Below are positions 25,181 to 59,212 of a stretch of DNA of 64,000 nucleotides, one piece after another. The position numbers and the translations under genes were made by a program. The stretch covers positions 62,650,533-62,714,532 of the forward strand of contig OX485804.1 of assembly GCA_950295325.1 (NCBI GenBank). Reading direction: 5' to 3'. Each line of letters starts with the position of its first letter. Position 1 is the stretch's first letter. The stretch comes from Polytrichum commune. Lineage: Eukaryota; Streptophyta; Polytrichopsida; Polytrichales; Polytrichaceae. The notes under the pieces were generated by a model. The model was given only the letters and a program-made list of their open reading frames with translations, was not told the origin of the DNA and searched no databases.

Positions 25181-25203
25181 GTTATAGTTGGCAAGTGGAA
25201 GAG

Positions 25204-25207
25204 TTAA
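25204..25207 (+). other. Unoccupied TTAA site, paralogue of the piggyBac insertion site
   Basis: The local sequence AGTGGAAGAG-TTAA-AGGACAAGCC matches exactly the joined flanks of the piggyBac element (AGTGGAAGAG-TTAA at its left, TTAA-AGGACAAGCC at its right). It therefore shows the pre-insertion state with a single TTAA. Confidence 0.95.
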
Positions 25208-29890: not shown

Positions 29891-30029
29891 TAAATGCAAA
29901 TTTTGGTGAAATTCAATGGTCCAAGTTGTTGTAATCTAGCATTCAAAATGGGCTTTCCTCATTGATGAACTTTATGGATTGGTCCGAGAGATCCTAATTG
30001 GGACTAACAAACTACAAATTCACATAGTT

Positions 30030-30250: not shown

Positions 30251-30294
30251 CATGACAATATTCTATTATGGAGTTGGTCATATGCGTAATATAA

Positions 30295-31814: not shown

Positions 31815-32045
31815 TCATATGGTAATATATCAAGGATAATTGAAAATTGGATGAAGAATCACTTTGTAAGTGACAATAAATGCAAGATTGTAGATCTATA
31901 ATGCCCACTTTCTTTTTACAAGGAATGACAAATACATGTTAGCTTTACATTTAGTGTTGGTGACACTACATAGACGGTTTACAATGAGTATTGAGCAAGA
32001 CAAATAGAATTGGTGACACTATATACAATATTCAGTGTACCATTG
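31815..32045 (+). repeat. Dispersed repeat family copy shared by units A and B
   Basis: It is paired with 61270-61490 of unit B and is inverted relative to 30030-30250. Blocks include GGATAATTGAAAATTGGATG and GATCTATAATGCCCACTTTC. Confidence 0.7.
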
Positions 32046-33260: not shown

Positions 33261-33727
33261 CCCGAATTCATGTTGCAAATTTCATTGTGCTTACTTTCAA
33301 GAGCCGTCCCTAAAAAGATACCCTACAATCCCGGCCAACTCTATCCACACTTGCCATGTGGAAATCCATGTAGATTTTTCATCCATTGAAGATGTTATGG
33401 GCCGTGGTCCAAAACTACCCTCATGTAAACCTAAAGTGGATAGCCTGCGACGCTCTCAACCAAGGAGGATTCAAGGATTGTTAAGAGCCATGGCCTACTG
33501 GCTCTCGTGTAAACAGGCCCTACGGCTACTTAAACTTAGCTTACCTTAGAAAAACAACTTGCATCTCACACTGGTCAGAGACCAGGTTGTAAAAACCATC
33601 ACTTCTTCAACGTCATCTTCACCTGACTTGAGATCGGTTAAAATCACGAGCTCTCACACTTCAGAGAAACAACAATTTACGAGGGACATAACCAATGAAG
33701 GTAACTCCAACCAAGTCAGCCAGCCTG

Positions 33728-33734
33728 TATATAA
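33728..33734 (+). promoter_or_regulatory. Candidate TATA box in a conserved segment (unit A)
   Basis: TATATAA lies within GCCTGTATATAACTGAGGAG, followed by a CT-rich leader-like tract. The same motif is kept in unit B at 62556-62562. It could be the promoter of an old retroelement or gene; no linked coding sequence on the plus strand is evident. Confidence 0.35.
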
Positions 33735-34021
33735 CTGAGGAGTGAGCTGCGAGACTCCATAGCTCATCTTCGCCTTCTGCACGCTCTTTGTGCTCCTCTC
33801 CTACTCTCCGTTCCTCAACATCTCACACTCGCTGACTCAGTAGAGAAGTCCTGTAGACCTAGACTTCTTGGGCAGGATAGAATTCTCTTTGAAGTATCGA
33901 CAAATCTTATATCTCAGCTGGTCCTTTAGTTCCTTACACAATAGAAGAGAACTTGTCCATTACAACCATCCGTTGCAGCTTGTCCATCGCAAACTCATAT
34001 CGAGAATATGCATGAACAAAT

Positions 34022-34561
34022 TTATTTTGTTGTCAAGCTGAGGTTTTTGGTTACATGTTTTGGGTAACCTTCAATTGAAGACCTCTTGTTGACAACCACA
34101 ATGATGAATTTATGCATTTTCTCATCATGAGCTGCGATGTACGAATTGCAATGGTCGGTGACTTGATAATGGGCAAGATAATCCCACCTTCCTTCAATCC
34201 ACACTCTTTGCTTTCCTCCTCCTTGGTGTGAGATGAGCTCCCTTTGATATTCAGCTGAAGAAGGAGACTTTCTTTTCAAAAGTTTTGCATTTGGTTACTA
34301 CAAGGAGCGTGTAGCCACAATTGCCACTGGTTCATTGCCATTAGGATTTAGATTGTTGGTCTCAAAATCAACTCGACAAATACATCTGGATACCAAAAAA
34401 CTACCTGTGTGGCGAAGAACCAGCGAAGAATCAACGATACATGATCCCTGCAGTGAGTGAAAGGGAAAAAAACATTGTCCATTCACTTGGTAGGGAATAG
34501 CTGTTGCCTCACCAATGATCACACTCTTGCAAAACATTCTGGGAGTATGATGGATAAGCAA
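34022..34561 (-). pseudogene. Unrecognised coding-like remnant (two adjacent minus frames)
   Basis: Minus frames at 34561-34298 (87 codons) and 34279-34022 (85 codons) abut. Their composition is protein-like, for example QGGGKQRVWIEGRWDYLAHY and SRCICRVDFETNNLNPNG. The homologous DNA in unit B (about 62870-63350) has frameshifts and stops, so the copy there is dead. I do not recognise the family. It may be transposon-derived or simply chance open sequence. Confidence 0.3.
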
Positions 34562-35359
34562 GCAACTACTTGTACTAGGTAACTTGTACGTTCCACAACT
34601 CCATGTCTCAACAGTCAGTCTTTGGAGTATGAAAAATTGAGGTAAAACTAAAGATTAAGAGCAAGGTGCTGTAGTTTTGAATCTTAATTATTAGTATTAG
34701 GCCTTGTTATACCTCACAAGTTAGAAGATAGGTGAACTTGTTGAAATGTGGCGTCAAGGAAGCGTTCTGGTTTCTGTGCATTTAAATCAGTGATGGATAG
34801 GCCTTGCTCAGATGTTCACTACTGGCCATCATGGATCTTGTTTAGAAATCTTCCTTCGCAAGATAAAATTGCACTGTAGATTAACTTTTTGTGTTCCTGA
34901 GGAGGTTAACAATGCTGGAGGACCCTCTGTGACTCATATATTTGTTCACTAAATCCCCTTGCTCTGGCATCCAGTTGCAATGGAAGGCAAGTGATGGAGA
35001 TGAGAGAGAAGGAACTCAATGTTTATAAAATAGTCCTTCTCATAGTTTCGAGTTGAAGATGTTTACATTTCTTGATGTAATAATAATTGTGACAATTTTA
35101 TTTGAACCAGAGGTGTGGAGGGCGCGATTTCAACATCTCAACTTCATACAACTACTTTGATGTTTAGGGTGGTGCGAGCCGGAAATGCAACTGTGGTTTC
35201 TTGTTTGCTTCTTGTGGTTGAGGAGCGTAAAGTAGACAGGTGAGAAGCCAATTCCTCATTTCTGAATTGTTGTATGACAAGCTTCCACTAAGCATTCATG
35301 GCCTTCTTCTCGCGTTTATTACTCTCAAAATTTTGAGATAGATTGTAGATCCCTCATCT

Positions 35360-38046: not shown

Positions 38047-38367
38047 TTAGGCCCTTGCCAGACGACCGGCAGGGCTTTCTGCCGGCTTGGCTAGGCGCCT
38101 GGGTCTCATAGATGTGCCCCGTAGGAAGCTGCCTGCCACCGGCACCACACGACCGGCCCTGGCAGGCCGTCATCACCGGGTCGCCACGTCATACCCTGCA
38201 CCACAGCTGCGGCTTCCTCCAGCAGACCCACTCCAGCAGGCTTCCTCCAGCAAGCAGTCTGTCCTCCAACAGAGACCTCCAACAAACCCTCATCTCGCAA
38301 ACTTTCATTTTTTGATGCGAATTCAAGGCAGCTGCACCTCACATTAGCAATCTGGAACTCTCTCGTA

Positions 38368-39774
38368 ATGGATGTTGAGGTCCAAAGGCTCTTAACATGT
38401 CTTATATTTCAGCTTACTTTGTTCTCCACTTTGGAAACGTTCTCAAGAGATGAGGGAGCGCTTCTTGTTTGGCATTGGCAACAACTTTGTTGCTTGACTC
38501 TCGTGATGCAAGGATTGAAGAGACTTCAAGGAAGGCAGCCTCGACGATTGTGGGCACACGACCGAGGTTTGCACCGTCCCGGATTTTTTGATCAAAACTT
38601 GTTAGGGTCTTTTAATACGAGAGAGTTCAAAGGTCGAATGCGCATGGACGTGTCGAGCTTCGAATATTTGTGTAGCACTCTCGCGCCATTGCTACAGAGG
38701 CAAGATACAAACATGAGAGCTGCCATTCCAGTTCAGGTTGAGGTTGCAGTGTCGATATCGAGGTTGGCCACAGGCAATTCTATGCAAAACATTACAGATT
38801 TGTATAAAATTGGGCTATCTACCGGTCAACTTGCAGTGTCACAATTTTGTGGTGCCATTAAAACACTTTTGCTCAGAAAATTTATATGTTGGCCTTCAAT
38901 TGAGAAGATGGACAAGTTCGCCAAAGAATTTGAAAGCTTACATCAAATTCCATATGTCGTGGGAATTGTTGATGGTTCCCACATTCCAATTGTGGCGTCC
39001 CGTCTGCATGCCGCTGATTACTACAATCGGAAAGGTTTCCATTCCGTTCTCTTGCAGGGTGTTGTGTCAAGCACATGTTTGTTTTGGGATTTCGATATTG
39101 GTTGGGCCGGGTCGATGCACGATGCCAACTTGTGGGCAAGGTCAGACATCGGACAATTTTGTGAGGCCGGGAGATTGTCGCCTTACGCCCTAGTGGGGGA
39201 TGCAGCCTATCCTTGCCGGCCATGGATGTTGGCCCCCTTCAAGGGCCACAAAGATGGCCTCTCACGTGAAGAGTACAACTAGAACTACGCACAAAGCTCG
39301 ACACGCATGTGCATTGAACGAGCCTTTGGAATGCTAAAGGGAAGGTGGAGGATACTTTTAAAGAGGATTGATGTGCATTTGAGAAATGTTCCTGACCTAG
39401 TGGCCACATGTTTGGTTCTTCATAATATGTGTATTATTTTTGGAGACGGATTTTGGAAGAGTGAGTGGATGCAAGAGGCGACGGATGAAGTCCACACCGG
39501 AATGTCACACAACCTCGGTGCAAGTACATCCACACAAGAGAGAATAGTTGTGGCCAACCATGCCCTAGAGAGCTTGGCGGGAATCGATGAAAATGCACGT
39601 GAATCTTTGGAGTACAAAAAACAAGAAGCTGCAATGGAGTACGAGATCGCTATGAGCACCGATGGCAAGACATTCAAGGAACTTTGTGCGAGAAGAAATG
39701 GAATAGCAAGAAGCCTATGGATGGCCAAAACAAAAGCTTGTATTGCAGAAACATTTACAATGGATAGTGATTGA
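38368..39774 (+). pseudogene. PIF/Harbinger transposase (DDE) with one in-frame TAG
   Basis: The frame starts at ATG 38368 and runs 304 codons, meets TAG at 39280-39282, then continues in the same frame for 164 codons to 39774. Residues 121-165 resemble the helix-turn-helix of the family (VAVSISRLATGNSMQNI). The DDE catalytic triad is visible: Asp202 in GIVDGSHIP, Asp252 in GSMHDANLWARS, and Glu317 in RMCIERAFGMLKGRWR, which lies after the stop. Without readthrough the catalytic Glu is lost, so this copy should be inactive; everything else is intact. The protein cuts and pastes the element together with the Myb-like partner, and pairs with the convergent gene ending at 39787, only 12 bp away. 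Confidence 0.9.
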
Positions 39775-39786
39775 CACGTAGTGCAC

Positions 39787-41327
39787 TTAAAGTTTTTCTA
39801 CCAACTTCTGCATAGTAGCTTGCATGCTCATCAATAAAGACATTTTCATGTCATCGCTCGCCTTTAAGCTTTCCATAAGAGTCATACTAGTCTCCCTAAT
39901 CTCCCCAATGCACCGTTCCATATACATGTCGTCCTTGCGCTTAGGTTCGGGGGACTTCAATGTGCTCTCCCGGCTTCGTGGCTCCGAAGTGTTAATGTCC
40001 GATGAAGCGTACGTATCGGACTTCGGGCCGTCGGGATTCACGGCGCTCGCGTGCGCATGAGAAACCACATTCGCCCTGTCATACATGAATTCATCCACGA
40101 GGGTGTACCACCGACACTTCTCCGATCGTTGCGACCCCGACTTCGAATTCATCGCCTTGTCCTCCTTGTAGTCGTTGTAGATGGCACTCCACTTCTTCCG
40201 GCATGCCTCGGAGTCTTTCGTGAAATCCGGGCACAACGACACCAACTTCGTGTGTAGCCGCGACCAATTGTCCACACCTGCAAGGGACCGCAATTGTGAG
40301 TGACAATGAAAATAGAGTATCAACCTATCCTTATTCCATAAATTCAATGTCATTCGTAAACAACATATACATAATGTTTTCCCTGCTGTACCTTCCATCC
40401 AAATGAACACCCAGTGGAAATTGAAAGACAACATGCAAGAGAAATATAAAAACAGCAGACCCAGGCAATGCGAATTGAGAAATTAAAACATTTCAGAGTC
40501 TGCTGCCTGCAGACTCGGAAACAATAGATTCCAGCACAGTCTGTTGTCTGCAGACTGTGGCCACATCAGCTTCCAGCCTCGAAAAAACAGAGTCTGCTGC
40601 CTGCAGACTCAGAAAGATAGAATTCCAGCACAGGCTGCTGTGTGCAGACTGTGCCTAAACCAGCTCGCAGCCCCGGAAATACAGAGTCTGCCATATTACA
40701 GCAGCAAAAACCAGATTCCGCTGCCCAGCAGCAGAAGAATAACAGACTCTGCTGCCCATCAGTAGGGTAAAAACAGAGTCTAATGTATTCGCGCAGAAGG
40801 AAAACAACCAATTCTACAAGTGCAGGGAAATAATTGCAAGAAAAAAACAAAGTGTGCTAGCGAACAGCAGGGAAAAAATTCTGCAGCCTAGCAACAAGAA
40901 ATGTGAACTATGTTATGATGGAAAGCTTGTCAGAAAGCAAAGAAGAAATCATTGAGGGAAAAAAAATTGTGAAAATAAATACATCCATACCTTGCTTGGG
41001 AGCTGCACTGAACGTGTTCTGCATCTCTCCACGGATGGACATGAGCTGGATCACCCAGTGATCCTTCCAGTGTCCCGCACTCTTCACAAGGTCCACGTCA
41101 TCTTTGGTGTCGTCCAATTCAACAATTTCAACTTTCTTGCGAGGAGCTCTCCGCTTCTTTTTGGGTTTGGATTGCTCCGCGCCGCATTCACTTGATACTC
41201 GTTTTTGCGAACCTTCCGTAAGGTCGATCGTCGTCGGTGTCGTGGCCTGGGGGGGAGGTGCGAAACCTGGTAATGCGGATGGAGGCATGAAGGGATGAGG
41301 AAACATGTACGGAACTTGATTCCCCAA
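39787..41327 (-). CDS. Harbinger Myb/SANT-like DNA-binding partner protein
   Basis: Exons 41327-40991 and 40277-39787 join as APKQ|GVDNW. The donor is GTATGGATGT and the acceptor CCTTGCAG. The product is about 275 residues: a Pro-rich N-terminus, a basic stretch (KPKKKRRAPRKK, nuclear-localisation-like), a Myb/SANT-type region with conserved aromatics (HWKDHWVIQ; VDNWSRLHTKLV; RKKWSAIYNDYKE; RWYTLVDEFMY), and a C-terminal helix-rich tail. In PIF/Pong elements this second protein binds the ends and brings the transposase to the nucleus. The frame stays open upstream of the chosen ATG with no earlier in-frame ATG before a stop; an ATG at 41463 lies in another frame, so the N-terminus may be frameshifted or start in an upstream exon. 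Confidence 0.82.
40494..40760 (+). repeat. ~97-bp tandem repeat in the intron of the Harbinger Myb-like gene
   Basis: AGTCTGCTGCCTGCAGACTC and TTCCAGCACAG..CTG..GT.TGCAGACTGTG recur at 40495 and 40591, with decayed further units up to about 40760. Each unit holds the palindrome CTGCCTGCAG/CTGCAG. The array sits inside the intron 40990-40278. Confidence 0.75.
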
Positions 41328-42499: not shown

Positions 42500-43484
42500 C
42501 TTAGAATGTAAGTTATGATAATTTGACCATGCTACATATAAGTTGAAACATACATAAGAAACCATGGTTGTTTTTATATGGGACATGGGATAATATGTAT
42601 GGACTTCCGAGGAGTATTCATATAATAAAATATGGTCTTGAGTTCATGTTTAGAACAAATTATAACACATACGAAATGAAAACTAAAACATATATGACAA
42701 GGTTGATTGTTTATACATGATACACACCCAACATATTTTTGAATCAAGGTGTTTCATATCTCTCCAATATTCGATCTAAACATATCATAACCTTAAGTAT
42801 TGGGGTACTAGCACCTAGCTCTCGATTTCAAGGGATATTTACAAAGAACTAGAGGTTCAAGAGTCTAAGCATTGAGTGAGAAATGTAGAAGACTCTTTTG
42901 TGCAACATGCCAACCTTTTTTTTTCACTAGTATCTTTCTATTATCAATTTTGTAGCCTTTTAGAAAATGTTAGAAATTAGAGTCATCCCGGATTGGAACC
43001 CCTACACTAATTTCATGTCCAATTTGGTCACATGACTGCATTCTAGAAGTCTAATTTTTCTTATGTTGATAGTAAATAATACCTAAACATGAAAGAAAAC
43101 ACAAATATGGTCTACGTTTTGTATGAATGATTGTGCTACCTTTGCTATAAAAGAGCATCAAACTTTGCTTCCAATGTTTGATCTCCTTTGAAAAGGTAGC
43201 TTGAGGGTCAAATTTGAATAATACATGATGTTTGCTCCAATTGACTTATACATAAGAAAAATGGGCTATTTTACAATAGGGGTTAAAGCATAAACATAAA
43301 TATAGAGATACATAGGTTTCTAATTGATGTTGGCTCCAATATCAACATCAGTCTTGCTTTGCTTCAAGGTCATCGAAACCTTACAATTGGCATACCTAGA
43401 GAAATCATCTCCCAGTCTCTTGCATTATGCCATGTTTCACAAATTATCATGATGTACCTTAATTGATATGCCATGACATAACAT

Positions 43485-43800
43485 GTCTTTGGACGGTGCA
43501 TGACCTCAATTTATCAATGTCATTTTCTATGACTCACGTACATGGATAGCAATAATGCAAGCAACATTTGTCATGTGCAAGGTTCAAGGGCAAGCCCATG
43601 TGTCGTCTCACATCAACATTTTACTTGTTACCCATTGCTATAATATCATGTGAGGCTCTTGGCATCCTTGAAATTTAAATTATCTCTCTTCATGAAGAAT
43701 ATGAAATGACATGACATAACTATGGACAGTGCATGACCTTAATTTATCAATGTAACTCTCAATGACTTAGTCATTATACAATAATGCAAGCAATAGTTGG
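43485..43800 (+). repeat. ~235-bp tandem repeat array, unit B
   Basis: Copies begin at 43486 and 43721 with TGGACGGTGCATGACC or TGGACAGTGCATGACC. The array is the counterpart of 24594-25190 and runs up to the piggyBac insertion point. Confidence 0.8.
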
Positions 43801-43812
43801 CAAGTGGAAGAG

Positions 43813-43816
43813 TTAA
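43813..43816 (+). other. Left TTAA target-site duplication of the piggyBac element
   Basis: TTAA is immediately followed by the element terminus CCCTTAAAAG. The matching TTAA lies at 56267-56270 and the empty site at 25204-25207. Confidence 0.95.
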
Positions 43817-43832
43817 CCCTTAAAAGAGGTTG
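43817..43832 (+). repeat. piggyBac left terminal inverted repeat, with subterminal hairpin
   Basis: The left terminal repeat CCCTTAAAAGAGGTTG pairs with 56251-56266. Directly inside it, 43835-43847 reads CTCTG-CGA-CAGAG, a small perfect hairpin without an obvious partner at the right end. Confidence 0.95.
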
Positions 43833-43847
43833 CCCTCTGCGACAGAG

Positions 43848-44603
43848 CAGGTAGATTCTCGGTATTTTGGGGGGCAGGGTTAGGGTTTAGTCCATATGGA
43901 CCGGTATAGTTATGCCGATCAGAGACTAATTTTTTTGTCAAGTGGGCCCCGAAGTGTGCATGATACTGGTGAAGACCTTTCTGCAATTGGGTTTGATATG
44001 AATTACCCTGTAATTTTGGACTGCGGCCAGGTGCAGTGGGTCGAGGAAATTGGATACGTATACGAGACGTGTATATACGCTGTGAACAGGGGGGTTGCAT
44101 GGACGCCGTGCGGGGGTTGCGGGTCGTCCTTCGTGGCTGACGTGACACGCACCAGACAGTCCCCCGGTGACTTTGGTAACCGGGTCAGTATGTGAATGCC
44201 AATATGACGGATGTGTGTGACATCGTTCTAAAGGACTGCTGGCCCGGTGGACGAATGGGGAGAGGGTGTGAAGAGGTGCGGCACGTGGGGCCTGTCCCAC
44301 AACAACGGCTTCCCAACCGCGTAAATGTCCATGGAGTGCGGCAGGCTCTGTTTCGGTTACAAGTTTTGTGCTCATGGGATAAATGGAACATGGTGCGGAA
44401 ATTATACATTTATGTGCGCTAAACATTGTACATATAGCATGCCAAATTGGTCTTACATAGAAGGTCCACAAAAATCTTGCTATCCCACACACACAGATAG
44501 CCGCCCAATGCTGGAGTTATACTCGCTCTAACATATTAGGTGATACATCAGGCTGCCAAAACCTTCCCCGCCTCTGCGGCCTATGTACAGAGCTCATGTA
44601 TTC
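43848..44603. other. Left arm of the piggyBac element, no gene recognised
   Basis: GC-rich with open frames on both strands (43896-44195 plus; 44492-43938 minus), none with a known motif. It presumably holds transposase-binding sequence and captured or filler DNA. Confidence 0.45.
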
Positions 44604-44629
44604 ACAGTGGTATAAAGAGCCTAATTAGC
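44604..44629 (+). repeat. 26-bp direct repeat, left copy, flanking the B3 gene
   Basis: ACAGTGGTATAAAGAGCC plus TAATTAGC is identical to 46300-46325. The two copies bracket the B3 gene 1.7 kb apart. It may be a scar of how the gene entered the element (repair with short duplication), or the ends of an inner inserted piece. Confidence 0.9.
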
Positions 44630-44789
44630 GTCACTTCTAGGCTTCCTCGGGAACTAAATGTGTCGATACTGTAGATGTCAGTTAGCACTGTCGACGGTGA
44701 CGAGTCCCAGTCCGGACTGCACAAACATGAAGAAAATACGACGCCTTCACATCCGTCTTCAGGGATTCGGCTCCAACGTCCTCCTTCGT

Positions 44790-45928
44790 TCAAACCTTGG
44801 TCACTTCAAATTCGACTGCTCCAGCCTTCGCGAACAACACCGAGTCGCCCAGCTTGAGTCTGTTGGCGGTGCAGAAGCCCGCCCATCCCTCAGTGAAAGA
44901 GCAAAACCTCTGCTTCCCGATTGTGTACGTAGCACTCTTCACCATCGATCCGGACACAGGGCCTCTGAGATAGTACCACATTCCATCGAACTCCTCATGT
45001 CCGTGTTTGCGCCAGTACACCACTGGGACGTCCTGCGCCCACCCAAATCAAGCTCTCACGGGATTGAGATGAAAGCACTCTCCGAATTGACAACGACAAC
45101 GGAACGACGGTGTTCCCAGGAATCCCCAAAACTTGCTACATGTTGCCGAAATAAAAAACAATTGGAAAACCAGCTTACAATTCGGCTGGATGCACACTTC
45201 TTTACGTGCGTCTTCCGAAGTTTCTTTTCGAAGTGCGGGCGGGCATCGCCGCGGACTTCGTGGACGCCGGGCCGAGGCGAGTGATCAGGACTAAGGTCGT
45301 CCACCTCTGGCTGCTCACGGGAGTCACACGCAAGGTGTGAGGCGTCCGGAAGCTGCTGAAAAGTCTGCGGTACTTTGAGAGCTGAGCGGCGGTGGATCCC
45401 GACCACGAGGCGTCTTTCATCTACTATCTCGAACGTCAATACCGCCCCGAGGCCAAGGCGCTGGTCACTCATGAACCTCGCCCACCCCTCGCCGATGCTC
45501 GCTGCGGACACCCCCCTGCGCATATCGGTGAGGAGGCGGAATCGTAACGGCCACTCCTTCTGAATGGCAATGGACGTCACCAACGCGCAATTCTCCGAGC
45601 GTGACCAGCCAGTTTCGGTAGTGAAGGTCGCAGGTATTTCCTGCGATTCACACAGACATCACTACCTATCATCGTGAGAACGACGAGCCTGACAACGCCA
45701 TGACCCTAGACTCACTACAAGCCCGCATGCCACCTGCAAACATACATACGCAAGCACACACGACAAGGGAGGCTTGAAACCGAAGTGCACACGCTAGGGT
45801 TTTAACAAACATAGAGTACATACCAGTTTGTACCGCTGCGCTTGAGATTTCACTGTGAGGGCGAAGTAGCATGCACCGGCTTCGTCCAGCTCCCGCAACA
45901 CCTCCGACCGACTCCATGAATCCGCCAT
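44790..45928 (-). CDS. B3-domain protein, intact cargo gene of the piggyBac element
   Basis: Exons 45928-45824, 45640-45206 and 45032-44790 join in phase 0 with canonical GT-AG sites and give 260 residues without a stop. The start MADSWSRSEVL is the ATG of exon 1. A B3 domain spans about residues 20-105: YFALTVKSQAQRYKL|EIPATF (first strands, split by intron 1), SRSENCALVTS, KEWPLRFRL, GEGWARFMSDQRLGLGAVLTFEIV and VVGIHRR. After an acidic/polar linker, exon 3 (181-260) reads like the second half of another B3 domain: FTEGWAGFCTANRLKLGDSVLF...FEVTKV. B3 domains are plant DNA-binding folds (ARF, ABI3/VAL, RAV, REM); this one is closest in style to the divergent REM-like sort, but the subfamily is uncertain. 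It could regulate the element or host genes, or be a passenger. Confidence 0.8.
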
Positions 45929-46299
45929 GGATAACGAGCGCAATGTCTTCAGGATCATCCACCAGGAGCGCCCAATATCCACCACTTGACCTCAGCATAC
46001 AACCACCCCGTGAGTTCTCAATGTCCTGACCTCGGCAGCAACAACTACAATTCTCGGTGAAAGGCAGAGCAATGTGAATCACGAAAAAGTGGAGAGGGAG
46101 TGGTAACCTGGGAGCAATGACGAGCCTGGGCTGACAAGTACACAGGGCTGGCAAGTACACAGGCCAGGGTTTAGCATTATTACCAAATCGCGGAGCGATC
46201 ACCACATCATCATGCACAACATGGTCACTTCAACCATCAGTGACCTTCACATGGTCGGCGGCCCATTGATAAACAAATCCACTTGAATGCTCCTCTGGT

Positions 46300-46325
46300 A
46301 CAGTGGTATAAAGAGCCTAATTAGC
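46300..46325 (+). repeat. 26-bp direct repeat, right copy, at the CesA/B3 junction
   Basis: It is identical to 44604-44629. It lies about 35 bp from the point where CesA coding sequence is cut off (about 46360). Confidence 0.9.
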
Positions 46326-46359
46326 ATTCCAATGTACTTCATAAAAGATGTACTCACCT

Positions 46360-47617
46360 AGATATCCACATTAGCCAGCTGAGATGGTTCGCCTTCTTTC
46401 TCATACCTACAGACATGACCCAAGTTAGACATGAACGTGTAGTCACTAGTTCTGGCTATTGGCAGAAGATTGTAGACAAAAAGGCCATTTGACCTGCAGG
46501 TTTTAAAAGTGAGATTTGCTTTATCATATACAAAAAACAGACACCCTAAACTGAATGAACAGACTTATGTTGGACTCTATAAAATCCACAATAAGGATCC
46601 AAGGGTATTTGATGAACATTACTACTCACTGATTAGCAAAGTATGGTAGAACATAAAGCATTACCTACAAGCATGACAAACACAACGACAGGTTTACAGA
46701 AAGAACCTCGCATACCCAAACTGGGCAGCGTAGTGGAAAGTGAAACTGTAATTACCTGAGGGAAAGGCGGTCTAGGTAAGTCTCTCGGTTGATGGGTAAC
46801 CACTTTGGAAACTGATATAGGATCCAGGATACAGCAAACCAGATCTCACAGATGACAGATGTTAACCACAACCCATACGCCTCATTGACTGGGTTCAATA
46901 TGCGGTATCGGAAGAAGAAGCCTATTACTACAAGACGGATGACAATAATCATCATGTATGGATGAATCCTACTTGACGGAAACGGAACTCTCCTTGACTG
47001 TGGTTGCCTTGATTCATCCATTCTGTTGCAATCAAAAGCAAGGTCACAAATTTGATTTTAGTCGCAGTTCACAACCATTACAATCCACCAAAGTTAGCTC
47101 AAGAAATCCTCTAAGATTACTCCTGATTGAACATCACTTGAAGGTAAGTTCAGCAAGCTCCAGGTTTCAAAACAGAAAGATCCTACTTGAAGAATTAAAT
47201 CTATTAGACTAGTCTACATGTGTTTATAGTCATATGAAGCTGAGAAGCACGGCTGATATTATCCAACATAGGAAGTCTATGCCGGTGCAAAATATTGGTT
47301 GTTAACTGGTAACAAACCAGCAGATCGTACACACTCTTCCATCTATGGAGGTAGTATGCACATTAGATGGAATTTTTTCTGCTGATATGTGTAAACACAG
47401 TACAGGCATGATCTATACAAAGCAGTGCAATCTCTTAGCAGACGATAGAATTCACCTGGGATGCTACTATCAAGGTAAGGGATCGGATGAACCCTCTTTC
47501 CGCCCCCTGCAATCTGTGGAAGGACAAGAGCATGGTGCTCAGGTGAAGTTGCATTGGATTCACTTGTTCCAGAGACTTGCATTGAGGACATTGTCGCACT
47601 CATGAGGACAAGGCACT
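46360..47617 (-). pseudogene. Captured cellulose synthase (CesA) fragment with introns
   Basis: Three exon pieces read in order. 47617-47456 contains GGGKRVHPIPYLDSS, the variable region after the zinc finger. 47022-46756 contains [20 protein letters not shown], the first transmembrane segment [40 protein letters not shown] and [19 protein letters not shown]. 46406-46361 contains YEKEGEPSQLANVDI, where true CesA continues into FVSTVDP but this one meets TAG and unrelated DNA. Splice sites are kept (donors GTAATTAC and GTGAATTC). The exon encoding the VAWKERMEGWK-type segment, normally between the first two, is absent, as are the catalytic domain and the rest. Whole CesA proteins are about 1000-1100 residues; only about 160 are represented. 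It therefore cannot make cellulose synthase. Confidence 0.9.
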
Positions 47618-48110
47618 CTGAAATTGGCAAACTGGTTTAATTACCACTACTCAGACTGGACCTGGTTCAGACATTTCTATCAGTGATGTGTGTAAGTGTT
47701 CAATTAGTGTTCAATGCCTGGGATCAGAATAAGCACACGTGATTTCGAAACAGTTACAGACCTCCAGGTGAAGTAACCCAAAAGCTGGGAGTTGGTAAAT
47801 TTATGAACATATATTTGCATGAACTCATTTAACAATACTCCACAAGCAAACTTAGACTTGGTAAACTTCAAATGTGGAGGAATTGTATCAGATCACTAAT
47901 TGCATACAGGTGGATGCACCTGCGCCCGCGAATTGTTTTGCTTAGAGACCGACCAAGGTATCTGAATAGCACTCCCAAGAAAGTGTGACCCCCCTATCGA
48001 TCACCTGCAAAATACTCACACAAATTGGCACTAAGAAGCTGGTAAATCCTTGCACAACTTTCTCTGCAATTATCCCCAATTAAATCGTCCTTAAATCCCA
48101 AGTAAATGGT
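47618..48110. other. piggyBac interior, no gene recognised
   Basis: This may be intron sequence captured with the CesA fragment. The zinc-finger exon of CesA was looked for and not found. Confidence 0.45.
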
Positions 48111-48125
48111 CTGCTAGTATCACAT

Positions 48126-48920
48126 TCAGACGACCCGGTCTCGTCCAGGATGACCTTCACATCCACGCCGGTCTCTCTCGAGAAATGGGCAGACGTGGCC
48201 TACACGCAATTTGCCTGCACAGATTTTACAGTCCCAAAAAGTCAGTGATAGGGAGTTGTTCAGATAGCAGGAACAATTCATGCAACCTAAGAAAGGGCTT
48301 TCACAAAGGCTCTGCCTCGAGGTTGGCACTGGGACGGCGAATAGCATAAAGCCATCGTCACTCCGTTTGTGAACATAATAGATGAAACTCCAAAAACAGA
48401 GCACAAGATGCAGCATTTACAATGTTGAGCATTTACAAGCAGAGACGACGGCCTATGACATGGTCGCGACAGAGGACGGGCTGTGATATGGAGTTACAAA
48501 AAATTCTGACAGTGGAAGCTCGAACTGCAGGAAAAAAAATGCCAGTGTTCCTATACTGCATGTGACCAAGGCCAAAATGTTTCCTAAGGGAGTCCTGAAA
48601 CGCATCGACCTCCACAAAAAAATTCGGCAACTGATGTTGAGGACCACAGGTGCCTGTACATCTACGAAAAGGCTGGTAGTGAACGGGTCTACTTCTGAGA
48701 CCAACTGTCATGTGTAATTTCAGTTCATCAAAAACCCCGTCCAGGTTGAGGATACTCAAAACGATCGCCGGCGGAATCGCGGTGGAGAAGATTGCCCGCA
48801 CTGGCTCTTCGCGGAGTCCACGCCAACGCCGAGATCCAAATCTGCTTCCGCCCACATCCGCTGCAAAGCTCCTTCCTGTTACAACATTCTTCCAGCATGT
48901 TAGATGCGACACTTGCATCG
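48126..48920 (-). pseudogene. Possible second, broken B3-like fragment
   Basis: Around 48620-48560 (minus) the frame reads NFFVEVDAFQDSLRKHF. After an AG acceptor near 48205 comes ATSAHFSRETGVDVKVIL then DETG. Together they resemble the first strands of a B3 domain (FFxVxV...SLRxP...FSRETG...VxLxDxxG). No clean splice joins them, and the following domain half is missing. Long open frames at 49014-48433 may be only by-products of GC richness. Treat as tentative. Confidence 0.3.
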
Positions 48921-50065
48921 AAATATAACTATAACCTCTCGTGTTGTGCCTGGTAACATGATTCCGGGCACATCCACTTGTTTCCGCAGGAGGTGCAAAA
49001 CCACTTTTGCACACGGCCGCAGATCACACATCCTCGCTTTAATTTGGACCGCCGTAGTGTGTGGACAGGGTGATGGCGTCGAGTTCTGCGTGCAAGAGGG
49101 ACTTGCTGTCTTTGGCGGGCCTGTATTGCTTCTGTAGCAAGGTACTTGCCGACGGCGATCTTGAATGCCAGGTGTGAGGTGACGGGCAATCCGAGGTCCT
49201 CCATTTGCTTCACCCAAGTGACATAGGCGTTCACCATCGTCTGGTCCACAATGAGGTGAAAAATTTTCACCCACCACTTGTGGCACCGAAGCTGTGACGA
49301 ATAGTTGCCACGGAGCTGGTCCGTCACGTCAACTCCGCGCATGTACTCGACGTACTGCCGGTGCATGGGAGACGATGGCACCACCAATTGGCCTTGAAGG
49401 CCGGGTATTCGTCGGAGCACCTTACTGTTCGGCTCCCAAGGTGCAGCCGCAGTGCTCAGCAATGTCACCAACTTCTTGTCTTGCCAAGAAACAACGCCCA
49501 TTTGTCGATGGACGTGATTCCAGATAATCATGGATCCCCTCACGGCGGTGTCCGGGTCCCGATAGAGTCCACCGGGCAGATTTTTGCTTGTGCGGCGCAC
49601 GGTGCCCGTGGCCCATATCCCCTTGCACATGAGCTCATGGAAGAGGTTCACGCTTGCAAAAAAATTATCGATAACCAAACAGTGGCCCCGGTTTTCAAGA
49701 CCCTTCACCATCCGTTCGACCACGTGGTATCCCAACCCGTGAGGCCCCGCCCCTGTTCCTTCACCAAAATACACCTCCATTTGCCAAACAAACCTGCTCT
49801 TCGAGCTCGCCAACAACCAAACCTTAATCCCAAACCTTACAGGCTTGTCCGGCATGAATTGCCTAATGAAACAGTAACGCCCTTTGTAGGGGATGACACA
49901 CTCATCCACAGTTATCTCCCTCTCCAAATTATAAATATCCTTGGAAACGTTTACAAACATTTCTACAAGCCATCTTGTCTTGGCAATCCGATCAAACAAT
50001 GGGTCAGACACATCCCTCACTATACTGTTGTTATCCACTAGATGCAAACAACGCATGATCTGCTC

Positions 50066-50068
50066 CTA
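50066..50068 (-). other. In-frame TAG interrupting the piggyBac transposase
   Basis: The frame before and after is the same and both sides match the family without a gap (IMSLER, stop, EQIMRCLH). Family members usually have an aromatic residue here, so a TGG-to-TAG change is a simple explanation. Because the stop precedes all catalytic residues, the product would be only the N-terminal part unless it is read through. Confidence 0.9.
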
Positions 50069-51748
50069 CCTCTCTAGCGACATGATGGACGAGATGAGCG
50101 GACAATACAGGAAGGGTTGGCTACGCATCCAATACTGCCTCACGCTTGGGAGACGTTTGCACCCCATGAGGATACAAATTCCCAACCAACCCCGAATGTC
50201 GCATCGATTCACATCCTTCCACGTCCGTCCACCCTTTGTGTGTGGCAACTCATTCTCCACAGGAGGCAGAACGGCCCTCGCATACCTGTTGGTCTCAAGT
50301 ACAATTCGATCCACACAGGCATCAGTCCAGTACAAATCAAAAACCGTATGTGGCTGAGGAATTCCTTCTGGTCTAGGGGACTTCAAACCTGGCGCAGGGC
50401 CCGTGAAGTTGTCACGGGTTCTAACAAAATCCACGCTGGCAGAGTTCCAGGATTCCTTCCTGTAGTATTCAGCAAGTTCATCACTCTCCATGTGGACTGG
50501 CGTGAACGAATCCGGTGTCATGCACCACTGCTCTAAACCAGGCGCCATGTGCTCACTTTCATCTAAGTTATCAACATCGAAGTCCGAATCCGAGCTCTCC
50601 AAGGTATCACAGAACTCGGGGAGCCACTCCTCGCCACTAGAGTCCGCCGACATCATTAGCATTTCCGCATTACCGCCGGAGTGTATAGAAGTGTTAGAGC
50701 ATTGCATGTATTCTGGCAGCCCAATACTTACCTTCGGAAAAGTGTCCCTGGCTGTCGAGTCCTGCGTACCGTCGACCCCCTCAGTATCGGAGGGGGCATC
50801 GTAATCTGCAATGGGGAACTCATGTGGAACACCGGGTGTCACCTGCGCATCAAGGTTTTCAGCCACCTGCTCCGTTAGACCAGGGTCGTTGCCACTCCCC
50901 ACTCCGCTTGCAGATCCCCCTAAAAGCTCCGTGGCACTCACTCCCGCGACTGCACCAGCATAAACACCAGCCGAGTCAGGTGCAGGGCTGAAGCAGTGCT
51001 GCCTCTTCCACCAGCCGTAGCCATGTCCCCCCTCACTACCGTAGGCGCGAGCGTGCGGCCCATCTGCAACTCTTACGCTCTCCTCGTTTAGGTGGCACTC
51101 CATGTCGTATCCCCCTAGGTCGCACAACACCATCCGCTTCCCAGTCGCGGCATGCACACCCTCCCCGATGACATCCCCTTGCGTCCAAGATGGTGTGTCG
51201 CCAGTGTGGAACGAAAGCTCGGATAGAAACCTATTTGGGACTAGAACAACCCACCCTGCCCGCCTGCAACTCCACTGCACATACGTCCCTTGGAAACGGT
51301 CCGGCATAACACCGACCTCGAGAAGCACCGGCCTCTCCAAGGATCCGCCTGGGTGTGTAGCTCCAAAGCCCGTGTGCTTCGAAATAGGGGCTGCTGACCT
51401 CCAAGCGTCGTCGCGGAACACAGACTCCCAAAGGTCGATATTTACGGTATCCATGTTGCCAACGGAATGTTGCCCTTCAGGCGCCACAAAGTCTTCAAGG
51501 CCCTCGTACCCACCATAACTCGCCAACACCTCGTAGATCGCGTCGTCGTTCAGCACTTGCTGCTCATACATCGCCACTGTCCTTGCCAAAGCTCGCGTTC
51601 GAACACCGTCGGTGAGGTTAGGCTGGGGTGTTGGCGGCAACCATGCACGCGGCCTCCTCGGCTTGGAGCGCAACAGCTTCCCTTTCTCCTCCTTTGTGCA
51701 TCTTCCACTTGGAGCCCGCTGTCCACCTGTGCAGCGACGCAAGTGTCA

Positions 51749-52726
51749 GGAATCTCGAAATATATAGGCACACCTGCACATCCAACGCGACTAAACCAGC
51801 AACAACCACATTTTGCATGTCGTCAGCCAAGTTCCCCCAAGTGCACCCTTATTGGTAGAATTTACATGCAAGGTAGACAAATCAGGAGCGGTATGTGCTG
51901 TGAAGACACCATCGGGGAGATGCTACAATTCTGCTGAGACTAGTTGCGGCACTATTGACGTAAGATGGGACATTCCAGTTAGTGTTGTTTGGTGAAACTT
52001 GGACACGTTGCAATATACCCAACGATGCCCAGCCATGTCAGTGACGTGTTGAGCACATTCATAAGAGTTTTCAGCAAGCAGAAAAACGATAAATGCGCAA
52101 CACATCATTCTCCTAGTATTTGTCATCCTGCATCTTTCTCGCATTAGAGCAGTTGAAGCCTGCAAAATGGAGGGTTTGACTGTTGTATCTGTGGCATATC
52201 CGGCACTTTTTAGACTGAGAACCTGTTTCACCCTTCAAGTCTTATTGGGTTTGTGACTTGTTCAATAGGCAATATGTCTCATCTATACCCAGTGGTACTA
52301 AATATCCTTGGGACATCATTGTTCAGTTGGGAGGTCAGGTGAATTTTCGCCAACGATCCTTATACTGTCTCAATGCTCTGAAGCGTGCAATAAAATAATA
52401 AACAGAGTGCATGCTGCCTATGCTGTTGTAAACTCAATCAAACTTCCAACCACACTTCATATGTTGGCGTCACAATTATGTGCTGAACTGTGTCCCCGGG
52501 TGAAGAGTTATATATAAAGAAGTTGGTCTCTGCAAATTGGTCTATGTTATGTTTATACTAAACTGGGAAATGGGTTGTAGACATTGAGCAAGCTGTAGAC
52601 AACACGACATTGAAGAAGCTAAGTGCCCGATTGATTGTACGGCAATACATGGGAGGATTCATACTCCATCCGAGCAGCTCAGATCAAAGATTCTGAGAAG
52701 CTGCATATTGCGGAGATTATCTACAC
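51749..52726. other. Large intron 5 of the piggyBac transposase gene
   Basis: It runs between the exon 5 donor (GTGTAGATAA after 52727) and the acceptor GTCGCTGCACAG before 51726; the intron itself is 52726-51727. No separate gene is recognised in it. The AT-richer part (51900-52650) may be inserted DNA. Confidence 0.5.
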
Positions 52727-53498
52727 ATGTCTCACCACGTTGGCGTGCAGGTGTCGAATCAGGGGGGGGAGGTCCGGATTCGTTTCCCACACCGCTCTCC
52801 GGCATGGGAGTCTGCAGCATGGGCGACAGATCCTGCAAACCGCAATCCGATGTGGTCACCTTCTTCGACCTCGATGACCTTCGAGGTTTCGGCGTAGTCT
52901 CCCCCAACTCTGCGAACGCCTCCTGATGTTGTTCCTTCATCGGGCGCTTCAAGCTTGGTTTGGCAGTCGTCCAGGGTGGCTGCGTGCACTGGGCAACATC
53001 GACTGCCTCTGCTGCGCCCCCTTCGTGAACCTGGAGCAACGGACCCACAACCACCTGCAGAGGCTCCGAACAGGACAACGGAACAACGCTCAAAATTTTT
53101 AGTGTCAGGCACGACTTAATCATGCAACAACAACTATCAGGAGGCACACAACTACTCGGTGTAAGCAAAAAACCAATTACCTTCTTCGCCCTGGCCTTCC
53201 GAGTAGGCTTTGATTTCGTGATTGGCTCGACATTCTCCTTCCCACTGTCCTGACCTATCCCGCACGTATCCTACAAGGTGTTCCACGACAACAAACAGTT
53301 ATTACGAATTATGTGGATCACACCTATTTCTCTGACATCACAACACGCATATGATTGTGTGCAATCAATGTACAGGGGAACAGTGGTTTAGGAATTTGCA
53401 ACCACTACCTTGGTCTGCAGAGGCACTCGCGGGTTCAGTGGTGGCCCTCTGCTCTCGTCCGCCGTGAGAGGAAGGCATACTTCCGCCTGCCATTTCTC

Positions 53499-55174
53499 CT
53501 GGCACGCAATTACATGACGGGAAAGAGTCAGTTGCCCACCTCCGCGCATATCTCAAACACCCAAAAACAGAGTAAGTCAGATAATCAACGGAGATTGACG
53601 AAATGTACCAAAGACGAGCAGTAATCCCTTTCAAAACACTTGTCTCCAGGTTTGGGTCAGTTCCCGTGCAGGCCGTGCACAGTGATGACCGGTTACACAT
53701 ACACAACGAGGATATATAGAGTATGTAACAACATGGCGGTCGTGATTACGTGTATGCAGGAGCTACGAGAATTTTTCCTACTGCATTGGATAAATGACAA
53801 GTTGGGGAGATTTCGGTTGCACATGTGGTCCAATAGCATAATCAGAGAGCTGGTCAGATGTGTGTGCGATTCAGCAACTCTGAGAGTGCCGGAATTGAGG
53901 TTAGTCGGCATAATCCACGTCCAAGTACTACGACCAGCAATTACAGGTTCCACCCTCTAAACCTCAAAGCGACTCATATAGATTATGAGTTGCTCGGTAC
54001 TGATGTGTCTTAACATCGAATGCCGGAAAGGAGATGTGGCAAAAGAGGATTTGCAACCACATGCACCAGCTATACAAAATCTCTCCTCAGAAGATCATCT
54101 CTGCAGATATTTGGCATCCATCAGGCATACGTGGTGGCAGCCATAGCTTACACAAACGAATATGACGTGAAGAATATCGGATCAATGAACCCATATGGCA
54201 TAGAGAGTGACCCCGAACTGATGGGTGGCAACATTCTATAGATGTCACGGCCACTTCGAAGGCGGGTCGAGGATGCGAAGAAAAGTCTTCAAATAGTCGT
54301 TAATTTGCACAAGCGAGAAGTATTGCAGATATATCAAAAGCAGCACAACACACAGATGATTGTCTACATATGGTTGTACTTACCACAAGGCAGCAACAAC
54401 GTGCAGGGCAAGTGCAGGTGGACATCATAGACATTACCTTGGTCTGCAGTGGCACTCCTTGATTCACTGGTTTCATCAAAGTCTGAGCAAACACCATAAA
54501 CTCAGAGCACAAATAGGTGTTGGACTCCAAATTCCGCACGCTACCAATATGGCCCAACTGTACTTACGAATTCACCGGGCAATAACATCACCCCCATACC
54601 CGCCGAAAGAGATGATGCAGGGGATATCAGGTTTCAACAAATAGGTTTCAACAAGTTCTCACTAAGAACCTTTAACCGAGAGTGAAAATAGGTGCCGGAG
54701 TCCAACACTACCAAGATGACCCAACTATGATGCAATTCCGGAAAGAACAGTACTGGTGGCACCCTTCGCCGTCGAAGATGGTGCAGCTGACCCCCGAGCG
54801 AAACACAGGATTCAACATAGGATTCTCAAATCTCACTTAAAATCCATAAACCCACAGCGCGTATTGATGTGAGAACGATAATGACATCACCCTTACCCAC
54901 AGATTTACATGGTGAAGCACATGATCTCTTCCCACAGCGGAGAAGGAAGAAAGCACACCACATGCATACATCGAAATATAAACAGTAGCAGGAACTAAGA
55001 CAAGTTACAAAAACACACATGATGTTCTTGTCGATGTCGACCCGCCGATGTTGGTCCAGGGATCATAGCTTTTCCCGGCGATCACTTCAAAGACACCTCG
55101 CCCTCACCAACGTCACTCCCCCCACAGAAACCCAAGAGAAAATGGCCGCACTCGACACATGCTCGGGGACTTAC
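53499..55174. other. Introns 1-2 of the piggyBac transposase gene, with internal duplications
   Basis: A ~100-bp block (AAATAGGTG..GGA.TCCAA...CTACCAA.ATG.CCCAACT) occurs at about 54511 and 54690. The 3' halves of exons 2 and 3 (VPLQTK and donor) are also duplicates of each other. No independent gene is seen. Confidence 0.5.
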
Positions 55175-55264
55175 CTGCGTAGTGCTGATCGGGGTCAGCG
55201 GCGATCGATCCCGCATGTGTGTCGGCTGCGATCCTCCCCGAGCCATCCTCGCGAGGCGCTTCAT

Positions 55265-56250
55265 CCCTCCCTCCTTCAGTGAGAAAAACGTGTCCACGTA
55301 GAATGCCCGTCACAATGTCGGGGAACCTCCTGCGCTCGCACCAACCAAGAATTCGAGCCGCGTGCCTGTACCACAGATAGCGGCACCGTTCTTGGATCCC
55401 AAATGTGCCTCTGCGATTCCACCGGCTCGGGCGTGGCTGTGCCAGCAGTGTGCTCACATCAAGGAGCCCAACCGCCCGTGCTGCGCCTTCCTCCGAAACC
55501 CCCTGCCTTGTGAACCACAAACACAATTCAGACTCCAAAGAAATGCGGTTAGCGCTCTCCCAGGTGTTTCTCCTCTCCATGTATACTCGACGCACGCGGT
55601 GAAACGAACTTGGATGTGCAACCACGGATCAGCTGCAGAGTTTGAAAAGGGCAATAGGACAATCCGCCGCAACCAAAGCCTCTTGTTCACAATCCGGAAC
55701 TCCATTTCCCCCCTCTCACAAAACCCAGTACCACAGACGTGGTGGTCACGATCGCAATAGCCACACTACAACATCAAAATCGCTAGCCACACTATCACAT
55801 CAAAATCGCCGGCGCCATGACGTCCGGTCTGCACTCAACAAAACACCGAGATCTACAAGAACCCTAAACCTGGAGTGGAGAAGGTGGAAGGCGTTGCAAA
55901 AGCGGGGGAATGCCCTCGCGAATGGATGTGCCACACGAGCGTGTCCTCCCAACGACCACGACCGGAGGAGGCGGTCACCAACGGCCTCATGATAGTGCGC
56001 TGCGTCACCACGAGGACCGTCCCTGCTGGCCCGTATACGTCTATAGTATTCGACAAGAAAGCGTAGAATACACAAAAATGCTCACTTATGTCGACCCCGA
56101 CATCGCCACACGGCTCCGAAAATTCCAAGAAAAATCTTGTAGGTTGCCTCTGGGTATTGCCGACATCTCCGTAGTTTGGAGTCAGCTCTGAATCGGTGAA
56201 GACAGTTCACCTCCAGCCCTAATCGGTGCACCGTAGGCCATATTGGCTCA
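55265..56250. other. Right arm of the piggyBac element / transposase promoter region
   Basis: A minus frame (55625-55176) of about 150 codons (MERRNTW..., FGIQERCRYLWYRHAARIL) ends at the same strong donor as exon 1 (CAG|GTAAGT) but in another phase. It might be an alternative first exon, and it is not conserved with any family I know. Promoter elements cannot be placed with confidence. Confidence 0.35.
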
Positions 56251-56266
56251 CAACCTCTTTTAAGGG
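56251..56266 (-). repeat. piggyBac right terminal inverted repeat
   Basis: CAACCTCTTTTAAGGG is the exact reverse complement of 43817-43832, followed by TTAA at 56267-56270. Confidence 0.95.
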
Positions 56267-56270
56267 TTAA

Positions 56271-59212
56271 AGGACAAGCCTCTACAACACCTTGAAATAA
56301 CAATGTCCTTATGACCAATAGTTGCAATGTCGCGTGAATATTTTGGCATGCCCAAAAATATTTCAATCGTATTTCAAGTAATATATCCCTTAAAATTCCT
56401 AAATGCATACCTGTTGGTAGCCCCAAAATGATCTTGGAAGTCCATTTGTGAGTTTCAAACCTTTTGACAATTGTTATGGCCAAGCCTAATATGTTGACAC
56501 CCAATCCAACCATTTATATGTTTGAAGCATAATTTAAGCAATAAATGACCCAACACATTTTCACTCATCCAAGCATCTCGTGCTAGACAATTTTAATGTT
56601 TATGCGATGAGGTGTAAAAAATGGAGATATTGTTTCACCTTGATTTCATATCAAAATTGATACTTTTTAAGGCTTTACATTGATTTTTGTAAGACGACAA
56701 TAGAAAGGTAGTAGAGAAGCCACATATATTAGGCATTTAGGGTTAATAGATGTGACACATTATCATATGAAAATGGTAGCTACATATAATAAAAAAAGAT
56801 TAGGTTTGTATTTGTTTCTCTCTCATTGTGTCATCCTACCTTCTTTGATACTTTTATCATCATACACATTACAACTTTATTCAATCCAAGATTATAGCTA
56901 TGTATTATGAGGCAAAAATAGAGGCATGCAAGAAACGATGACATACCCAAGGAAAGTAAAACACATGCAACCATGATCTAACACAAGAAACCATGTATAT
57001 AGATGGCCGAGATTGCTCACTACATACTTGAAGTTGATAGCAGGGGTCATGATTGTCCATCCGTGCGCACATGGCCTCATAAGTTTTGGTGTCAATTTCT
57101 CACCCGTTTTTGAAGGTTCATACTACTCATAGATCCTTGCTCTCATTGCTTGTTGTAATTAAGATTCTAAATATTCATCCCCCCTCCCCCCCCTCATCTA
57201 ATGATCCAAATGGAATAAGACCCATATTAAGAGACAATGAGTTGTAATTTGCTTTCTCCTCTCAACAACACAATAGTGTTTACCCCCCCCCCCCTAGGAC
57301 TTCAATTTTCTCTCGCGAAGGATTGGAAATACGTAGAAATGATTTCCGGGAAGTGAAAATAGCATCTCAATGCTAAGTGGGTACATGTGCATAGAATGAG
57401 ATTCAAATCCATATCCTTCCATCCCAAAAGATATACTTGCTATGCTCACTTATTCTTCGCGGAGATGTGGTAAACCACTATATAAAGAAAAACCTTAATA
57501 TGAAAAAAAGAAGCCGAAAGTCTTTGGGAACACAAAACCTTATTACCGTGGAATATTACAACATTGGATCATTACTATAATGGATCATTATAACAATGGT
57601 GTAACGATTAAACATTACCAACATAATTTTTAATGGAGAGATGGTATCACCCGAATATCAACATGTGTCAAAATCTTGTAGTGGCATGGGTAGGCATCGT
57701 AGATAATAAAAGAATCATGGGGTTAGGCACACAATAGATGTTGCCTCTAATTATCAACATTATCTTCACTTTGCGTCAAAGTCATCCCAACCTTACTTGC
57801 AAAGTTGGCAAATCTAGAAAAATCTTCTGCAAATCTCTTTCATTATTGCCATCTTTCACAAGTTATCATGATGTACATGACTGACACGACCCCAATTTAT
57901 CAATGTCATTCTCAATGACTCGGTCATATGTATGGATGGCAATAATGCAAGCAACAGTCATCATGTGCAAGGTTCAAGGACAAGCCCAAGTGTCACCTCA
58001 TATCAACATTTTACTTATTACCTAATGTTATAATCTCTTGTGAGGCACTTCACATGCCTGAAATCATAGTTATCTCTCGTCATGAAGAACATGACATGAC
58101 ATGACATGATTATGGACGGTGCATGGCCTCAAATTATCAATGTCACTCTCCACTACTTAGTCATTGTAAAAAATGACTAAGCATCCTCCCCCCCCCCGCT
58201 CCCTCCTAAATTAACAATGTTGTCCATTTGATATTGTCATAAAAAAGAAATGGGAAATCCTCATTGTGGATACCCATACAACATCCAAAAAACGACAATG
58301 GCATACCAACACTGCTCTTAAACCACTGAACTCTAGTTAATCCCTAAAGGACCGAAGGGCCAAATTTGACTTTTTGCACAGTTGTTTTTTGGTCCATAGA
58401 TTTTGTCTCTCCTCTGTCTTAGAGCCACATACAAATATATATACATTAGGGGATCAATCTTCCAAGCCTTTCTCTTCTAGCTAGAAACAAAAGTCATTTG
58501 ATATTTAAAAAAAAAAATTTAGCTAACAAAAACATAGTGACGTTTGGGTTTTTTTGGACCCACTTTTAGACATTTTGGAGGCGTTTCGGCATCAAGCCAA
58601 GTAAACATGGATATGTCCAATTAATTTTATGATGGGCACATTTTTGTTTTTAAAAAACATTGTTTGTTTCTAAATATGTGCATTGTCTTATCTACCCCTT
58701 GGATTTGAGTACTTGGGACATGTGTTTTTTGTGGAATGAATTTCTCAAGTCAACCCATATTTGACATCCGCCCCAAAGCAAGCCTAGGGAACCACATTAA
58801 ATAACTCCAAAAGTAACTCTTTCCTTCTTGTAGATGGGCTAAACTCACATGTGAAGGTCTAGAAGGAGAAAGATCACCTCGAAAACAATAATGTGATTAT
58901 CAATGAGGCAATACCAACCAAACACTAGATTTGAACATCCCATAGATTATTCCATCATTGGGTTTTCACACCCTGATCTCAACAGTCAAAACGTTCTCAA
59001 ATAATTTAGGAAAAACAATATTAGCGCCCTCAATACTACTATATCTAATCCATGAGGATGGTTTGGGGAAAAACAATCCTAAACTAACACCACTTTAACG
59101 TGCATAATTTAAAACATAAAAATTGTTGTGAATTCAACTTTGCTCTAAACATGGTCCTTCAAGGGTTAATCAATAAGTTCACCTCAAAATGCCTAAGACA
59201 AGTCCAAAGTCT
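56271..59212. other. Unit B, collinear with 25208-28490 of unit A, no gene
   Basis: It lacks the 496-bp element found in A. It has extra pieces at about 57190-57290 and 58410-58690. Poly-C tracts lie near 57180, 57283 and 58188. The ~235-bp repeat recurs at 57890-58150. No conserved reading frame survives comparison between A and B. Confidence 0.6.

Follow-up and report, generated by a model that had tools for sequence, protein, structure and literature searches.

A 12,450-bp piggyBac element in Polytrichum commune

The element described here occupies positions 43817-56266 of a 64,000-nucleotide stretch of the Polytrichum commune genome (contig OX485804.1), which we refer to as the window. 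Within the element lie, in order, a gene with two B3 domains, a fragment of a cellulose synthase (CesA) gene and a transposase frame, all on the minus strand and enclosed by terminal inverted repeats (TIRs) (Table 1). The TIRs match perfectly and begin CCC, the two ends diverging past base 16, and at both ends a TTAA lies flush with the repeat. The window contains 338 TTAA sites, and just one pair of them, that at the element ends, directly adjoins a perfect inverted repeat of at least 10 bases; such pairs averaged 0.06 at 10 bases across 100 simulated first-order Markov sequences, with none at 12 or 16. Both the repeats and the flanking TTAA had been claimed in an earlier note on this DNA, made from the sequence alone, and both are confirmed. 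piggyBac TIRs begin CCY, and the element combines a TTAA duplication and short CC(Y)-type TIRs with a DDE_Tnp_1_7 transposase and three aspartates, the features by which the piggyBac superfamily is recognised. GC content is 0.36 in the 2-kb flanks and about 0.50 within the element, changing at each boundary.

Further copies of the TIR were sought in the window with a 17-base pattern allowing up to three mismatches, which returned the two element ends only. No subterminal motif of 7 bases rose above chance, and one 8-base palindrome occurs once near each end, a level that is also reached in 8 of 252 interior pairs. An Rfam scan of 43000-57000 at E 0.1 gave no match.

Table 1 Positions in the window of the features of the piggyBac element and of its empty paralogous site.
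Feature	Position	Strand	Basis
Single TTAA, empty paralogous site	25204..25207	.	Flank alignment
Target-site duplication TTAA, left	43813..43816	.	Abuts element end
Terminal inverted repeat, left, 16 bp	43817..43832	+	Perfect match to right end
26-bp perfect direct repeat, copy 1	44604..44629	.	Sole other exact copy in window is 46300-46325
B3 gene, second B3 domain exon, with terminal stop	44790..45032	-	PF02362 3.7e-7 (open reading frame 44790-45047); predicted acceptor
B3 gene, predicted 146-bp intron GTAAGC..GCGCAG	45033..45178	-	Splice prediction
B3 gene, exon with first B3 domain	45179..45640	-	PF02362 1.3e-6
26-bp perfect direct repeat, copy 2	46300..46325	.	Exact match to copy 1
CesA exon C (YEKEGEPSQLANVDI, then stop)	46361..46406	-	CesA likeness by eye; PDB match covers only the first residue or two
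CesA exon B	46756..47022	-	PDB 7d5k E 3.5e-41; 8vi0 6.1e-43
CesA exon A, variable-linker region	47456..47563	-	Second stretch against 8vi0, i-E 0.005; splice donor
Transposase frame	48929-51742	-	937 residues, one in-frame TAG
Transposase catalytic core and Cys-rich tail, past in-frame stop	48929..50056	-	PF13843 2.6e-48; piggyBat 5.8e-19
In-frame TAG, residue 559	50066..50068	-	Reading frame
Transposase N-terminal half and start of catalytic domain	50066..51742	-	PF13843 2.3e-12; N-terminal region conserved in relatives
Predicted small beta-barrel, residues 154-238	51029..51283	-	Predicted local distance difference test (pLDDT) block means 61-87; weak fold matches
Terminal inverted repeat, right, 16 bp	56251..56266	-	Perfect match to left end
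Target-site duplication TTAA, right	56267..56270	.	Abuts element end

The window also holds a version of the insertion site that lacks the element. A unit at 24495-35191 is paralogous to 43387-64000, with 83-92% identity in the main matching blocks; this duplication takes up a large part of the window's right half, and the piggyBac element is present in the second copy only. When the flanks of the element are closed by one TTAA, their alignment to the single TTAA of the first copy runs through the junction ungapped. Identity to the empty site is 93% in the right flank (514 of 551 aligned bases, with 18 gap columns) and 87-88% in the tandem-repeat part of the left flank; a 17-base gap interrupts the left-flank alignment about 20 bases before the TTAA. 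That the closed junction aligns in this way speaks strongly against the boundaries being the product of a simple assembly join.

piggyBac excision can restore TTAA without a footprint. Because the element may excise tracelessly in this way, and because the site is a paralogue and not an allele, the empty site gives no date for the insertion. The earlier note had treated the site as an internal control: its one-TTAA junction holds and the boundaries with it, but the order of insertion is left unproven by a diverged paralogue. The insertion may instead predate duplication of the unit, so that the site at 25204 would be an excision product, a history that is compatible with the interpretation we favor below and that we regard as rather unlikely. 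Footprint-free excision, which an excerpt of one paper names for the Trichoplusia ni (T. ni) element (PMC12732532), would permit it, whereas insertion after the duplication is simpler, and the data of the window do not separate the two.

The transposase and its relatives

With the in-frame stop read as X, the transposase matches DDE_Tnp_1_7 (PF13843) in Pfam at 1.1e-68. Among solved chains in the PDB it matches piggyBat at 5.8e-19 and 6x67 ("Transposase", 594 amino acids (aa)), which we take to be the T. ni piggyBac enzyme, at 1.1e-17; one relative, P0086, matches the solved chains of piggyBat and T. ni type at 4.2e-32 and 1.3e-22. The catalytic aspartates are found at residues 613, 692 and 805 (with a further one at 808), the three presumably corresponding to D268, D346 and D447. 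Aspartate occupies 613 and 692 in all 60 rows of the tree described below; of the 53 rows that have a residue at 805, 51 show aspartate, as do 50 of 53 at 808. On the strength of these matches the transposase is a DDD enzyme of the piggyBac superfamily. The catalytic aspartates reported in the earlier note are accordingly borne out by conservation among the tree rows; the Cys-rich tail that it also described is present, with six Cys and one His, but no Pfam family of zinc tails was matched in the window transposase or in nine relatives.

An uninterrupted transposase frame is absent from the window copy owing to the premature TAG at codon 559, which the earlier note did not mention and which makes this copy probably non-autonomous. 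An upstream exon is likely, because an acceptor-like CAG is found close to where homology starts, at about residue 6. The model of the N-terminal barrel has pLDDT block means of 61-87 over residues 151-230 and 47 beyond, and chromobarrel, Tudor and Agenet folds head the lists in fold comparison, with weak matches only. The transposase has an extra conserved N-terminal domain, the predicted structure of which weakly matches barrels of the chromobarrel/Tudor type. The 4.5 kb that precede the transposase on its upstream side (51743-56266) have no gene assigned to them and contain stop-to-stop open reading frames (ORFs) of 203 aa (52659-53270) and 171 aa (55113-55628), the codon use of which is mildly transposase-like.

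A search with the catalytic core found 69 homologous proteins and one with the N-terminal region of the relative P0064 gave 45 matches, which together amount to 107 distinct proteins. Thirteen of these are at least 850 aa long, and near full-length copies therefore exist. Many relatives, up to 94% identical to the window transposase over the matched part, are listed on separate contigs. For the tree we kept rows covering at least 250 of the 391 core positions, that is 60 of 108 (the 107 matches and the window), and dropped 48. The window groups with P0086, to which it is 96% identical over 390 core columns and 84.6% identical over the whole length, with a support of 98/75 that is under the tree threshold; the two are nested in a clade of 34 rows with support 100/100, in a tree whose bootstrap had not fully settled, whose outer branches include several long ones and whose rows carry no taxon labels. 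Viral contigs yielded no pattern match in a first scan and 33 in a second, none confirmed by tblastn; prokaryote genomes likewise yielded 33 pattern matches, none confirmed by tblastn, and a search of viral contigs for the exact 20-base element end found nothing.

The B3 gene and the CesA fragment

The second B3 domain scores 30.4 bits, above the curated PF02362 cut-off of 30.1, and the first, at 28.7, falls below it. A predicted intron with GT..AG ends, the acceptor of which was called both by eye and by script, fuses the two B3 stretches into one frame of 234 residues. One homologue, P0116, reads off-frame past its first B3 domain into sequence that matches the second B3 exon of the window when this too is read off-frame, so the exon order is common to both. 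Searching with the first exon found 37 homologous proteins of 98% to 41% identity, 29 of them with a precomputed PF02362 match, and all 19 aligned rows (18 of these homologues together with the window ORF) match PF02362 at E 0.01. For two of the homologues, P0109 and P0115, the longest contigs are 12,629 and 9,952 bases, the same sizes as those of the transposase matches P0064 and P0072; homologues of both genes thus appear to co-occur in two other records, as judged by identical contig sizes only. When the B3 contig sizes were randomised, by a shift of up to 10%, or of up to 50 bases if that was larger, at least two matches at 8 kb or more arose in 1 of 20,000 trials, a cut that was chosen after the matches had been seen, and at least two matches over all lengths arose in 1,532 of 20,000. 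Of the two outcomes, the one for long contigs is the more informative.

The CesA exons A, B and C follow one another in order in the stretch that separates the transposase from the B3 gene. They have GT and AG splice sites, and the reading frame crosses the B/C intron into CesA-like sequence before it reaches a stop. Between the parts of 8vi0 that are matched by exons A and B, about 50 residues (191 to 245) have no match. The presence of introns shows that the CesA sequence was acquired as DNA. Its GC content is 0.41, compared with 0.54 in the B3 block, 0.54 in the transposase, 0.50 at the left end and 0.49 in the upstream part, single 500-base windows elsewhere in the element going down to 0.43. 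To judge from its sequence this is a degenerate, intron-containing host fragment, and it is the only plant-type sequence that clearly behaves as cargo. For other cargo, Pfam searches of all six frames of the element at E 0.01 or 0.05 returned the transposase and B3 only, and the three minus-strand frames of 43820-48904 matched only chains of the cellulose synthase family in the PDB.

The double-B3 gene is probably the second gene of the transposon family and not private cargo, and its product would then be an accessory DNA-binding protein. The alternative is a single-gene piggyBac element in which both the B3 gene and CesA are host genes captured in this copy or its recent ancestors, as in Pack-type elements. 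The B3 domain is known chiefly from plant transcription factors and the CesA sequence beside it is host-derived; moreover, the 26-bp direct repeat brackets the B3 block and adjoins the CesA block, and could mark capture or repair (that it is a capture scar may be so, but is a guess). In favor of capture, too, five of the seven B3 homologues on contigs of at least 8 kb have no transposase match of equal size. Capture of the B3 gene is nonetheless hard to square with homologues whose identities spread as widely as those of the transposases, with the two that share contig sizes with transposases, and with a GC content in the B3 block that is element-like and not CesA-like. We therefore consider capture of both genes unlikely, slightly more so than the excision history discussed above.

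Interpretation and relation to known transposons

Taken together, our analyses lead us to think, with a good deal of confidence, that the locus holds a DNA transposon of the piggyBac superfamily that is resident in a plant genome and whose lineage probably carries two genes. One would encode a transposase of roughly 900 residues, composed of a conserved N-terminal region with the predicted beta-barrel, the DDD core and the Cys-rich tail, and the other, with two exons, a double-B3 DNA-binding protein. The transposase would cut at the terminal repeats and paste into TTAA, the B3 protein would bind element DNA as an accessory factor that aids transposition or regulates expression, and the N-terminal barrel may contact chromatin. 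The element would have acquired a genomic, intron-containing piece of host CesA between its two genes. The ends of the window copy look usable, and it would presumably move only with enzyme supplied by an intact relative. A more ambitious account would see the two-gene elements as a deep piggyBac lineage of plants that recruited B3 as a partner in transposition or anti-silencing and fused a chromatin-reader barrel to its enzyme, an animal-type transposon thus remade from plant regulatory parts and able to move pieces of host genes. We advance it only tentatively, as something possible that we do not expect to hold in full.

Residence in a plant is indicated by the CesA fragment, by the B3 gene and by a plant-type Harbinger transposon in the flanks. 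The earlier note had rested residence on plant cargo; plant gene sequence is indeed present, but only the CesA fragment is clear cargo, the B3 gene being probably a gene of the family. The change in GC content at both boundaries might be taken to indicate an assembly chimera or contamination, in which DNA of a foreign source, whether animal, fungus or alga, became fused into the contig of a plant. However, the boundaries fall exactly at TTAA and a perfect TIR, closing them yields an unbroken paralogous site, and a plant CesA fragment with introns lies inside the element, so that we give this explanation very little chance. Less probable still is a domesticated transposase locus that is not a mobile element: retention of the catalytic aspartates would suit it, whereas the perfect TIRs with TTAA, the in-frame stop and the many relatives on separate contigs do not.

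The Harbinger transposon is of PIF/Harbinger type and lies at 38125-40482 as a pair: two adjacent plus-strand ORFs match DDE_Tnp_4, one of them also Plant_tran, and a Myb/SANT-like ORF, below the Pfam cut-off, is on the minus strand. Elsewhere the window contains a full-length match to U6 spliceosomal RNA (18813-18915, minus strand, 110 bits) and minisatellite arrays at 11183-11578 (40/81-base units), 13175-13655 (91/47) and 24577-25143 (238).

Like the piggyBac element of T. ni and piggyBat, whose solved chains 6x67 and 9c0f (594 and 578 aa) match the window transposase, the element has a TTAA target, short repeats starting CCC, a DDD core and a Cys-rich tail. Those elements have a single gene and are about 2.5 kb long, whereas here 12.45 kb hold a probable B3 gene and host cargo in addition, and the transposase core begins near residue 466 in the relative P0086 but at 106-131 in the solved chains. 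Pack-MULE and Pack-CACTA elements likewise carry intron-containing fragments of host genes within their TIRs, but lack the transposase sequence that the window copy keeps, albeit with a stop; no paper in the collection searched combines "Pack-TYPE" and "piggyBac". A transposase with a DNA-binding or regulatory partner is also known from En/Spm (TnpA and TnpD), MuDR (mudrA and mudrB), PIF/Harbinger (transposase and a Myb-like protein) and VANDAL, which belong to other transposase superfamilies; here the partner would be a double-B3 protein. Teratorn, a fish piggyBac element with a herpesvirus, is similarly very large and rich in content other than transposase, but differs in its animal host and viral content.

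Excerpts of several papers mention piggyBac in plants. A fern repeat table lists 1,230 PiggyBac pieces that average about 100 bases and sum to 122,417 (PMC6890710); PiggyBac is among the groups of angiosperm miniature inverted-repeat transposable elements (PMC10004981); and plants are listed for piggyBac without detail (PMC3902484). The natural range of piggyBac is usually put at animals, fungi and protists, plants being mentioned just in passing; red algae are named in PMC12732532. The fern and angiosperm entries likewise claim plant sequence related to piggyBac, but the excerpts describe no coding family with ends. Two further candidates were set aside, a moss paper in which the excerpt has the word "piggybacking" (PMC10619864) and a paper with the term in its reference list only (PMC8232201). 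Since piggyBac in plants has been reported previously, there is no novelty in its mere presence. Among the matches listed, in a search that was thin on subscription journals, none described a coding piggyBac family of land plants, or one with a B3 gene.

The range of piggyBac would be extended by a coding family in plants whose ends are exact. piggyBac is a workhorse tool for gene transfer, and footprint-free editing could then draw on ends and enzymes native to plants. The B3 partner gene, if its assignment is true, would add one more to the plant transposons in which the transposase has a separate DNA-binding protein as its partner, and the CesA fragment shows that intron-containing host DNA can be accommodated in a piggyBac element.

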